Below are positions 3,743 through 7,860 of a stretch of DNA of 24,800 nucleotides, piece after piece. The stretch covers positions 1-24,800 of the IMG/VR virus record IMGVR_UViG_3300018041_000058. The stretch is one strand, 5' to 3'. Below the pieces are notes generated by a model. It was not told the origin of the DNA. It ran no database searches and was given only the letters and a program-made list of their open reading frames with translations. A program made the translations under genes and the position numbers. How positions within the stretch are numbered: the stretch's first letter is position 1; every line of letters starts with the position of its first letter. The stretch comes from a virus.

Positions 3743-4275
3743 TACCACTTTACCTTGTCAGCCCAATAGGCTGCTGAGAGTTTACCTTTGGCTATGTTCT
3801 TAGCGTGTCTAGCTTTGAATGATTTACGTTTAGCTTTCATCTTAGCTGACTCACCTGCTTTAGGTTTACCTGCAGTCTTAGCTCCTTGTTCACCAAACCT
3901 AATTGTTTTAATCTTATCACCTACTTTAGCAACAACGATGTGAGACTTAGTAGGATGGTTGGGAGTACGCTTGGGTTTGTTATAACCACTAACTCCTGCT
4001 CGTTTTAACCTACCGTCTGCTTTACCACCTTTAGCCATTCTATACTTTGCTGTCTTTTCTGCAGTCTTTTTAGGTTGAGGTACATGTTGTTTACCTTCTT
4101 TATTGCCTTTAGCTTTTGCTGCGTTGGTTGCAGCTTTCTCTGAAGAACTCAATGCATCCCAAGCTTTATCAGGTAAGTATCTTTTTTTACCTTCACTTTT
4201 AGAACCATCGGAGGTTCTCCATTTTTGTTTGCCCCATTCGACTAATGACTTTTGAGCTTTCTTTAACAGTGACAT
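3742..4275 (-). CDS. basic conserved phage protein (177 aa)
   Basis: Rich in Lys, Ala and Gly. Two segments look conserved in aquatic phage proteins: residues 33-58 (YLPDKAWDALSSSEKAATNA and what follows) and a C-terminal part beginning KSHIVVAKVGDKIKTIRFGE and ending in ARHAKNIAKGKLSAAYWADK. The C-terminal domain occurs in many marine phages and some large viruses, with no established biochemical role that I know of. The charge suggests DNA or RNA binding; placement between the terminase genes suggests a head/packaging link. Start and stop both overlap neighbours as TAATG. Family recognition is from memory. Confidence 0.8.
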   Translation of the reverse strand: MSLLKKAQKSLVEWGKQKWRTSDGSKSEGKKRYLPDKAWDALSSSEKAATNAAKAKGNKEGKQHVPQPKKTAEKTAKYRMAKGGKADGRLKRAGVSGYNKPKRTPNHPTKSHIVVAKVGDKIKTIRFGEQGAKTAGKPKAGESAKMKAKRKSFKARHAKNIAKGKLSAAYWADKVKW

Positions 4276-4484: not shown

Positions 4485-4702
4485 TAGTGTACTATCCTAT
4501 CTTCTTCTTTAGGAATTGTGTTTAAGTATTCTTTTTCTAACTCATCATCTACATAGATGCTGTCTAACTCACCTACAACCACTAAATGGTTTTGAGCTGC
4601 AGCTATCTCTGCTTTCTCATAGGATGAAGCTACAATGTTAGGACCTGCAAAGGTTGTACCGTAAGCTTCGATTTCAGTCAGAAATATCTTCATAGTCTCC
4701 AT
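4484..4702 (-). CDS. small acidic protein of unknown function (72 aa)
   Basis: Not recognised. Acidic, unlike its basic neighbours: METMKIFLTEIEAYGTTFAG then PNIVASSYEKAEIAAAQNHL and an acidic C-terminus. Predicted pattern is beta-strand followed by helix, as in small single-domain phage proteins. Two starts are possible: ATG at 4702 (purine-rich AAGAGCAGAAG upstream) or ATG at 4693 (GGAG only 3 bases upstream). Either way it overlaps the end of terS by 20-29 bases. Its stop overlaps the next ATG (TAATG). Confidence 0.7.
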   Translation of the reverse strand: METMKIFLTEIEAYGTTFAGPNIVASSYEKAEIAAAQNHLVVVGELDSIYVDDELEKEYLNTIPKEEDRIVH

Positions 4703-5093
4703 CTTCTGCTCTTAGGTTTATAGTTTCTTTTTCTGGAAGAATAAATATTCCACCATTAACGTTATGATTAACGTCTACTCTATCATGTTTACCTAAACCA
4801 ACACGGTCTAGGATTGTCTGTGCTGCTTGTAGTTTAACATTAGCTTGTGGTATGGAATCTTCTGATGTCATAACCTCTACTAACTTAAAAGCAGCTTTAG
4901 GGGCTTCCCTTGCAAGTACGTTCTGGGCTAAATCTACTACTTCTTCTTTTAAACTTTTGAGTACTTGATAGTGATTGCCTGAGTATCCTGCAAGTTCGGC
5001 TGAAAGCTTTAAGTCACCCTTCGTTTCAATAAGATTATTCAGAAAACTTTGTTGTTTATCTGTTAATTTACGTTCGGAGGGTAAGTTCTGCAT
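4674..5093 (-). CDS. terS: terminase small subunit
   Basis: DNA-recognition partner of the terminase motor. The 139-residue protein has the usual layout: an N-terminal helix-turn-helix region (KLTDKQQSFLNNLIETKGDL, then KLSAELAGYSGNHYQVLKSL), a helical oligomerisation region (about 55-95) and a flexible acidic tail (RAEDGDYEDISD). It opens the leftward operon that contains terL and the portal gene. A consensus promoter ends only 6 bases before its ATG, so the mRNA may be leaderless. No other in-frame Met occurs until about residue 75, which supports this start. Assignment rests on HTH pattern and position. Confidence 0.85.
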   Translation of the reverse strand: MQNLPSERKLTDKQQSFLNNLIETKGDLKLSAELAGYSGNHYQVLKSLKEEVVDLAQNVLAREAPKAAFKLVEVMTSEDSIPQANVKLQAAQTILDRVGLGKHDRVDVNHNVNGGIFILPEKETINLRAEDGDYEDISD

Positions 5094-5099
5094 ATCTTT

Positions 5100-5127
5100 A
5101 TTATACCTACTGATAAAAATTTGTCAA
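5100..5127 (-). promoter_or_regulatory. sigma70 promoter of the late/packaging operon (PterS)
   Basis: On the minus strand, TTGACA (5127-5122), a 16-base spacer and TATAAT (5105-5100) both match the consensus perfectly. The -10 box ends 6 bases before the terS ATG at 5093, so transcription should start at or within about one base of the start codon. It stands back to back with the promoter at 5165-5193. Confidence 0.88.
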
Positions 5128-5164
5128 GTTTTTTGTAAAAAAAAGGATATATTCTAAAAAGGTC

Positions 5165-5193
5165 TTGACAAAACAGTGATATACTTATATAAT
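5165..5193 (+). promoter_or_regulatory. sigma70 promoter facing the non-coding region
   Basis: TTGACA (5165-5170), 17-base spacer, TATAAT (5188-5193): a perfect consensus on the plus strand. The expected start is about 5200-5201. No convincing plus-strand open reading frame follows until 6921, so the product is likely an untranslated RNA (see 5201-5410). The divergent terS promoter lies 37 bases to the left. Confidence 0.88.
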
Positions 5194-5200
5194 ACCTTTA

Positions 5201-5410
5201 GGTCCCCCAGGGTTTGTATAGTAACAAATAGCAACCCCCCACAGTTACAAGTACTTTATAGACTTTAAAGTTACACAAGCCCGACCAAGCCTGTTGAGTC
5301 TCCAACTTAACACTTGAAAATCCCTGGAAATGTATAAGATTTAGTATATATATGGGGGACCGGGGGTGGTACTCTGCCTACCCCTTATCAAGACTTTTTA
5401 ATCTTGATAA
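5201..5410 (+). ncRNA. candidate structured non-coding RNA
   Basis: The predicted transcript from the promoter at 5165-5193 starts with GGTCCCCC (5201-5208), which is perfectly complementary to GGGGGACC (5354-5361) and would close a loop of about 160 nt. Nested inside, CCAGGG (5207-5212) pairs with CCCTGG (5322-5327), TTGT/GTAAC (5214-5225) pairs with GTTACACAA (5270-5278) around a 3-base bulge, and 5286-5316 folds as a hairpin (CAAG/CTTG plus GTTGAG/CTTAAC). Two more hairpins follow: GGGGTGG (5363-5369) with CCTACCCC (5378-5384, one G-U), and TTATCAAGA/TCTTGATAA (5385-5393/5402-5410). No good ORF is present. It does not look like tRNA or tmRNA, and the 3' end is uncertain. A DNA-level role (packaging site) is the main alternative. 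Confidence 0.5.
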
Positions 5411-5420
5411 ATCTTGATAA
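5385..5420. repeat. inverted repeat plus tandem copy, TCTTGATAA
   Basis: TTATCAAGA (5385-5393) and TCTTGATAA (5402-5410) form a perfect 9-bp inverted repeat with an 8-base loop. A further direct copy, ATCTTGATAA, follows at 5411-5420. It could be the 3' hairpin of the candidate RNA or a protein-binding site. Confidence 0.7.
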
Positions 5421-5440
5421 AAAAATAGTTAAACTCTAAA

Positions 5441-5520
5441 GACTTTGAAAACTTTGAAAGCTTTGAAGTTTTTATTGTGAAGTTTGAAAAGTTTTTGAAG
5501 TCTTGAAAAGTTTTTGAAGT
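5441..5520. repeat. direct repeats (iteron-like)
   Basis: A perfect 18-bp direct repeat (TTGAAAAGTTTTTGAAGT) occurs at 5484-5501 and 5503-5520, a 19-bp period. Just upstream, shorter copies of ACTTTGAAA/CTTTGAAG lie in tandem at 5442-5468. The tract is non-coding and AT-rich. Short-period repeats beside promoters resemble replication-origin iterons or terminase-binding sites; which one cannot be told here. Confidence 0.75.
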
Positions 5521-5801
5521 TTGAACAATGAAAAATAAAGAGTTGTGAGCTAGTAATTTAATTTAAGAACCCTTAACAGACTTAACAGAGCTCATATAAC
5601 TAATTGAGCTTGGGACGTTTAAGTGTTCTTGATAGGTAGTATTCGTTAATTCTTAACTTCTCATTAAATAACTTAGTGTTAATTACACTTTACAAGCTCT
5701 TTAGAGCTCATTAGAGAGCTTAAAAAATTAAATAGGTTATAGGGTATTAGTTGAATTATTGGATGGTCTTAAAAGAGCTTAGAAGTTTGTTAGATTTAGG
5801 A
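5521..5801. other. repeat-rich non-coding sequence
   Basis: No credible gene on either strand. It contains a doubled CTTAACAG near 5570-5590, several GAGCTC/AGAGCT sites, and the inverted repeat AAGCTCT...AGAGCTT near 5694-5721. It completes a gene-free stretch of about 750 bases between terS and the two-gene unit, unusually long for a compact phage genome. A packaging site or origin is possible but not shown. Confidence 0.5.
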
Positions 5802-5838
5802 CAAAAAAAAGGGACTAAAAAGCCCCTTTAATTTTAAG
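5802..5838 (-). terminator. rho-independent terminator of the 6472-5847 unit
   Basis: Read on the minus strand, AAAGGG and CCCTTT flank a 10-base loop (GCTTTTTAGT) and run into a tract of 8 T's, just after the stop of the 93-aa gene. On the plus strand the same hairpin is followed by TTTAATTTT, so it may also stop rightward transcripts. It separates the two-gene unit from the terS region. Confidence 0.75.
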
Positions 5839-5846
5839 TATGTTTA

Positions 5847-6128
5847 TTAATTCATTGAGTCCCCCCTAAAAGCTGTATTTTCAAAAGAACCATGTTTTCT
5901 AATCATGCTCAAAGCGTGTCGCCTTGCGTGTTCATAGCAAGTAAAAAGCTCACTATCAACACTTTGTACCCTTTCAATGGATTCACCGCCAAAAGTAAAA
6001 ACAGTTGTTAAAGCAACATAGAAATTTAAATTAGATTGTTTAATACTCAAATAATTTTCAATATCGTGAGCGTGATTCAATATAATTTTTTCTTTCATGG
6101 ATTCATTTAGATATGAAATATTACTCAT
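5847..6128 (-). CDS. protein of unknown function (93 aa)
   Basis: Not recognised. 93 residues, starting MSNISYLNESMKEKIILNHA, with a hydrophobic/beta-looking centre (NFYVALTTVFTFGGESIERV) and a His/Arg-rich helix (YEHARRHALSMIRKHG). The start follows the 113-aa gene by 2 bases, with only a weak RBS (GGA), so it is probably translated from the same mRNA. A terminator follows at once. The two genes sit apart from the terS operon and read in the same direction. Confidence 0.65.
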   Translation of the reverse strand: MSNISYLNESMKEKIILNHAHDIENYLSIKQSNLNFYVALTTVFTFGGESIERVQSVDSELFTCYEHARRHALSMIRKHGSFENTAFRGDSMN

Positions 6129-7274: not shown

Positions 7275-7860
7275 GGATTTAGGCTAGGCTAGACAGACTA
7301 GCTAGTCTAATTAACTCTATATCTCTATACAGATACTAAACAATAATCTTTATTATTCTTTACTATATCTCTATAGAGTTTTATAGAGCTTTATAGAATT
7401 AATCAGATGTAAGTTGAAAGATTCCAACGAAAGACACAAGGGATTTTGTTTTCATATTTTATCCTTGTGAAACTACAAGTCGACATAAAACACTTTCTGG
7501 TTATATGGTTTGCTAGTTCCATACAGTTATGGGCTACATTCAAAAGGATGTCAAAGGCTACAATTCACTTTGATTTCGTTGAGATTGTTGAGAAAGGTAG
7601 TGATAACTAAAAACTAGCACTTAATTTAAACAGTCATAGCTTAGAAGAGATAAGCATTATAAGTCTTATAAATAAACTGCTATGTCAAGGGTTAATAGAG
7701 AAACACCAGTAAAAATAACTAAACGATAAAACTGCATGAAACTCTCCCGACTTAAAGATACGCTTAAGATATCTTTTTGAAATTCCCACTTGCTAGTTGA
7801 TGGGTACAAATTAACTAGCACCAATTTTTAACGCTAACTATACTATCAAGGAGGTATAAC
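7275..7860 (+). promoter_or_regulatory. long untranslated leader with repeats and hairpins
   Basis: Non-coding or weakly coding stretch between promoter B and the ATG at 7861. It holds the 14-bp palindrome AGACTAGCTAGTCT (7295-7308), a 13-bp direct repeat CTATATCTCTATA (7317-7329 and 7363-7375), and an inverted repeat AACTCTATA/TATAGAGTT (7313-7321/7372-7380). TGCTAGTT occurs at 7511-7518 and 7791-7798, and its complement AACTAGCA at 7612-7619 and 7813-7820. The hairpin AAAGATA/TATCTTT with a short T run lies at 7754-7778. An attenuator/operator region is the best reading. A possible short ORF interrupted by one TAA lies at 7446-7712. Confidence 0.5.
7754..7778 (+). terminator. weak terminator- or attenuator-like hairpin
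   Basis: AAAGATA (7754-7760) and TATCTTT (7770-7776) form a 7-bp stem with a 9-base loop, running into five T's. The stem is AT-rich, so termination would be inefficient; it lies in the leader of the gene at 7861. Confidence 0.4.

Follow-up and report, generated by a model that had tools for sequence, protein, structure and literature searches.

Locus beside terS

The window, the whole 24,800-nt stretch of viral DNA analysed here, is a fragment of an HTVC103P-like pelagiphage, and its TerL is ~66% identical to those of HTVC103P, HTVC104P and HTVC115P. Two consensus promoters lie back-to-back before the gene for the terminase small subunit, terS, one for terS and the other pointing away into a noncoding stretch that is closed by the terminator of a convergent gene at 5847-6128. 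The features of the locus are:

4674..5093, - strand: terS, terminase small subunit (PHROG 2538, E 6.9e-6; homologues adjoin the element in relatives; annotated as terS in HTVC103P and HTVC115P)
5100..5127, - strand: terS consensus promoter, TTGACA-N16-TATAAT (12/12 match), with a leaderless start
5165..5193, + strand: perfect sigma-70 promoter directed into the element (12/12 match; kept in 146 loci)
5200..5223, + strand: predicted start of the transcript, with a conserved 5' motif (family consensus GCCGGGGTTGAATAGTA) from an alignment of starts
5201..5208, + strand: 5' arm of the proposed +1 stem, clade-specific at best, its conservation refuted
5306..5352, no strand: core of the putative pac element, CTTAACACTTGAAAAT...AAATGTATAAGATTTAGTATATAT, conserved with almost no gaps in 100 loci, with homologues in HMO-2011 and CRP phages
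5354..5361, + strand: 3' arm of the proposed +1 stem, in reality the start of the G/C box
5354..5384, no strand: G/C box ending in CTGCC-TACCCC, ~65% G+C in 33% G+C surroundings; also in CRP-1, CRP-2, CRP-9, CRP-207, HMO-2011 and phiM6
5340..5440, no strand: zone in which homology alone predicts the initial packaging cut (phiM6 PhageTerm cut, Rhizobium record starts)
5395..5540, no strand: phased repeats, [AG]CTTTGAAA and similar, ~10 bp apart
5803..5829, - strand: terminator of the convergent gene (hairpin and U tract), end of the noncoding stretch

The original prediction, made from this sequence, was that a perfect TTGACA-N17-TATAAT promoter with a start at 5200-5201 fires into an untranslated RNA beside terS. 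The promoter was confirmed, with TTGACA at 5165-5170, a 17-nt spacer, TATAAT at 5188-5193 and a predicted start at ~5200. Moreover, and as had been claimed, no ORF of at least 50 aa was found on the + strand in 5200-5850.

Relatives were gathered by terS-anchored scans, giving 146 distinct loci with a divergent promoter pair. The -35 box is TTGACA in all 144 of these loci in which it was callable, and the -10 box is TATAAT in 115/146, counts that are somewhat overstated because locus selection demanded a promoter pair with at most two mismatches. In all 146 loci, a second consensus promoter, that of terS, stands back-to-back with the promoter into the element, and the noncoding stretch is 500-700 nt long in most loci checked. 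In total, the promoter is real and strongly conserved in pelagiphages, and a transcript through the element, with a putative role, is therefore likely.

Two smaller regularities were observed at the borders of the noncoding stretch. The -10 box of terS ends 6-7 nt before the ATG in 103/113 loci and, thus, transcription would begin at or beside the start codon, which gives terS its leaderless look. In nearly all loci read, the other border is formed by an A8 tract (GRCAAAAAAAA) that closes the stretch, and this includes L022 and L031, which lack the convergent gene.

Folding of the predicted transcript

The 8 bases at the predicted start had been proposed to form a stem with 5354-5361 that was unlikely by chance. 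In the window, GGTCCCCC at 5201-5208 is indeed the exact complement of GGGGGACC at 5354-5361, and an exact octamer complement arises in 0.7-0.8% of shuffles; across relatives, however, the stem is at chance level. Of 11 distinct close relatives, three to five have lost it, the count varying with the pair. Among these relatives, 64% of cells are paired, against 61 +/- 3% after shuffling, and two-sided changes, the compensatory changes in the 5201-5208/5354-5361 pairing by which the prediction was to be judged, are not in excess over shuffles. Similarly, native helices are no longer than pairings of arms across phages (6.2 vs 6.5 +/- 0.2; 6.48 vs 6.56 +/- 0.12).

The nested pairings held in part. 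CCAGGG at 5207-5212 exactly complements CCCTGG at 5322-5327, but overlaps the +1 stem; because 5207-5208 is common to both helices, the two are mutually exclusive. The pairing of 5214-5225 with 5270-5278 is present but imperfect. In close relatives, neither pairing nor two-sided change in the CCAGGG/CCCTGG helix was above shuffles, and the whole MFE structure was no better than shuffles. Five candidate helices were compared in 47 diverse loci, and none was significantly longer than helices built from arms of different phages. Finally, no covarying column pairs were found in the core against a tree-based substitution-shuffling null, in an alignment in which a few loci were one base out of register at the 3' end.

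For the RNA 5200-5410, the folding energy is -68.5 kcal/mol and the z-score -4.4. The low energy comes largely from 5360-5540 and is similar on both strands, a signal that fits repeats rather than a strand-specific RNA. Across the family, the folding z-score of the 5' part averages only -0.4, and no match to Rfam or a described RNA family was found; a known RNA family was thus rejected.

Two other RNA candidates were rejected by eye. The core hairpins AAUC/GAUU, CUUC/GAAG and AUGU/RYAU look fine in single phages, but their register slides between relatives; and a boxA/nut-type antitermination site has a boxA-like CUUAACA, but its GCUCUU half is not kept. Also by eye, L046, L075 and L023 keep a shorter +1 stem with changed bases, and the stem may have a clade-level role at best. 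To the right of the element, the noncoding region 7280-7400 folds strongly on both strands (z about -5).

Conserved element and its homologues

A 47-nt core with almost no gaps is present in approximately 100 of the 146 loci, in most of them 85-160 nt past the start, and is followed in order by TATATA, the G/C box and CTGCC-TACCCC; variable insertions prevented an alignment of the whole leader. On the transcribed strand, the G/C box is rich in G in 39/47 diverse loci and rich in C in 8/47, and this strand switching suggests, from the sequences compared, that the box may act as a feature of double-stranded DNA. A G-quadruplex or R-loop was rejected as the conserved feature because the G-runs become C-runs in these 8/47 loci. 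Among otherwise close phages (the window and L031, L033, L035, L063 and L068), the box flips between G-rich and C-rich on one and the same strand, as if inverted or freely replaced.

In the noncoding stretch, 5-mers recur 9-fold above expectation at a spacing of 10, with further peaks near 19-20, 29, 39, 49 and 58, and this phasing is absent from coding DNA of the same loci. The ~10-bp repeats lie on both sides of the core, including the interval between start and core, and in the window the phasing signal peaks at 5201-5700. A repeated phage promoter was rejected as an explanation of the core, which is single-copy in the window and lacks clear second copies in full genomes.

Outside the window's group, a profile of the pelagiphage element made without CRP sequences detected the same element in the roseophage CRP-1 (E 7e-4), in a divergent noncoding region that heads the late operon, 4.6 kb from terS, and CRP-2, CRP-9 and CRP-207 bear it at the equivalent place. 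A profile of only these four CRP sequences in turn detected it in HMO-2011 at record 53559-53638 (E 7.5e-6), also in a divergent noncoding region heading the late operon, and a profile that included pelagiphage sequences detected it in HTVC103P (E 4e-6), again in a region of this kind. Thus, the element is conserved and linked to the terminase or late operon in ~100 terS loci as well as in HMO-2011, CRP phages and HTVC103P. Weak matches in the noncoding regions of L339 (CRP-3; 3883-3954) and L083 (HTVC033P; 1310-1261) are probably diverged copies.

In HMO-2011, HTVC103P and CRP-1, CRP-2, CRP-9 and CRP-207, the element mostly lacks the promoter and lies several kb from terS. No consensus promoter into the element was found in HMO-2011, the CRP phages or phiM6, and the phased repeats are absent from the same phages; HMO-2011, CRP-2, HTVC115P, HTVC033P and phiM6 do have a perfect promoter toward the late operon. 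Because the element occurs without the inward promoter in HMO-2011, CRP phages and phiM6, it is older than, and separable from, that promoter.

The Sinorhizobium phage phiM6 (MH700630) belongs to the same TerL lineage, with a TerL 40% identical to that of the window. For phiM6, PhageTerm predicted a pac start from reads, which was set as record position 1; the phage was described as terminally redundant, with a TerL similar to that of the circularly permuted HK639 (PMC6256558). For three profiles made without phiM6, the best match across the 68-kb genome was record 94-50 (E 0.11-0.17; next best 3.9 or worse), and 0/20 shuffled genomes scored as high; the profile of the window's group alone missed phiM6, which was reached only by way of roseophage and HMO-2011 sequences. 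The CTGCC of the match is 56 bp from the predicted cut, and we estimate the chance of a match falling within ~100 bp of the cut at roughly 4e-4. By sequence alone this match is weak, and most of its weight comes from its position.

As in the window, phiM6 has GTATAC...CCCCACCC..TGGCC.CTGCC upstream of the gene in the terS position and in the same orientation, with the predicted pac cut adjoining; unlike the window, it has neither a promoter into the element nor phased repeats, and its core can be recognised only in the 3' half. The order of cut, element and terS is the same in both, the cut in the window being predicted. Related Rhizobium phages also carry the element before terS, and the GenBank records of RHph_N3_19, N3_13 and I3_11 start inside the homologous element, which fits a terminus there, the reason for these record starts being undocumented. 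Near-full-length contigs are opened at scattered positions; the ends of IMG/VR contigs show at most a mild enrichment around the site and no sharp peak, and contig-end clustering was rejected as too weak to serve as evidence for physical ends.

A putative pac site and the alternatives

Because the element is conserved beside terS, is homologous to an element beside the phiM6 pac and shows no RNA covariation, we favour, with a probability of roughly two in three, the reading of 5306-5384 as the phage's pac site for headful packaging, which would act as DNA, with an added pelagiphage promoter through it. The original suggestion of a packaging-site structure is thereby supported as a DNA site, by way of the predicted phiM6 pac cut, but not as an RNA structure. 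In the mechanism that we infer, TerS would bind the gapless core and perhaps also the ~10-bp repeats that flank it; the first cut, by the TerS-TerL complex, would fall within the G/C box or shortly past it, at ~5340-5440; and packaging would proceed leftward through terS and the late genes. The promoter at 5165-5193 would be an addition of the pelagiphage branch, sending host RNA polymerase through the site to make an untranslated RNA of up to ~630 nt, the fold of which would not be under selection. Such transcription may serve to open the site or to mark it for terminase, a role played by T7 RNA polymerase at the concatemer junction of T7.

A passive pac site leaves the near-invariant promoter unexplained. 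We therefore entertain, tentatively and at well below even odds, that pelagiphages couple headful packaging to host transcription by means of a dedicated near-invariant sigma-70 promoter, such that a passing or paused polymerase, or an R-loop, would recruit or license terminase. In T7, the RNA polymerase-lysozyme complex pauses at the concatemer junction and recruits terminase (PMC3276506). In T7 and T3, as in the pelagiphage branch here, a promoter reads into the packaging site, a putative one in the pelagiphages; however, T7 uses a phage polymerase and terminal repeats, whereas the promoter here is of the host type and packaging is apparently by headful. If true, such coupling would mean that a T7-like principle had evolved at a pac site, using the host enzyme.

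Among the alternatives to a pac site, it is unlikely that the element is a replication origin, at which promoter RNA would prime or open the duplex at the A+T-rich stretch in an R-loop or T7-type manner and an initiator would sit on the core and phased repeats. A strong promoter with TATATA, G-runs and phased repeats downstream of it would suit an origin, as would a site at the divergence point of two gene arms in a phage with its own family-A polymerase and a primase/helicase-like protein (assigned from translations); but HMO-2011, CRP phages and phiM6 have no promoter into the element, the C-rich transcribed strand of the G/C box in 8/47 diverse loci disfavours an R-loop, and the element adjoins the phiM6 pac. 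A functional untranslated RNA, either a small RNA or a structured RNA of ~600 nt with a target in host or phage, is quite improbable even though it would account for the promoter kept perfect in 146 loci, for the ~500-700 nt consistently without + strand genes, for the fold z of -4.4 of the window sequence and for a slight + strand bias in folding energy of core plus box (p 2e-5). The structured small RNA of the original prediction was not borne out: the +1 stem and the whole MFE structure are at shuffle level in close relatives, the five candidate helices are not longer than cross-paired controls, covarying pairs and Rfam matches are lacking, the mean z is -0.4, and the element is retained without the promoter.

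That the site is instead of the cos type, with the G/C box as cohesive end and the core as cosB, is very improbable. The lambda-like order cosN-cosB-terS and the variable G+C-rich box adjoining a conserved core would agree with it; against it, phiM6 is terminally redundant with a pac start and has a TerL like that of the circularly permuted HK639 (PMC6256558), and near-full-length contigs were opened at many different places. Finally, it is hardly credible that the promoter merely drives early genes and that its leader is incidental: early genes are read rightward further on, and a + strand gene directly follows in L022 and L031, but the next gene is mostly convergent and has a terminator, and the conserved core would be unexplained.

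SPP1- and P22-type phages have terminase recognition near terS and headful packaging; the SPP1 pac has bent DNA, and the P22 pac lies inside the terS gene. The putative pac site described here would share terminase recognition near terS and headful packaging with these phages; unlike that of P22, it stands apart from the gene, as an element of ~80 bp within 600 bp of noncoding DNA. GOLLD and ROOL, giant phage RNAs, comprise hundreds of untranslated bases; the stretch described here also has hundreds of untranslated bases but no conserved structure and no Rfam match.

In the papers that were open to searching, no pac site is described for HMO-2011- or HTVC103P-type phages, and the paper on HMO-2011-type phages makes no mention of a promoter, of circular permutation or of a terminal repeat. 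With a near-invariant host promoter directed into the element, one may ask whether packaging is helped by transcription in phages other than the T7 group. HMO-2011- and HTVC103P-type phages are reported to occur widely and in abundance in the ocean, and the ~80-bp sequence of the element is searchable in metagenomes and usable to orient assemblies.
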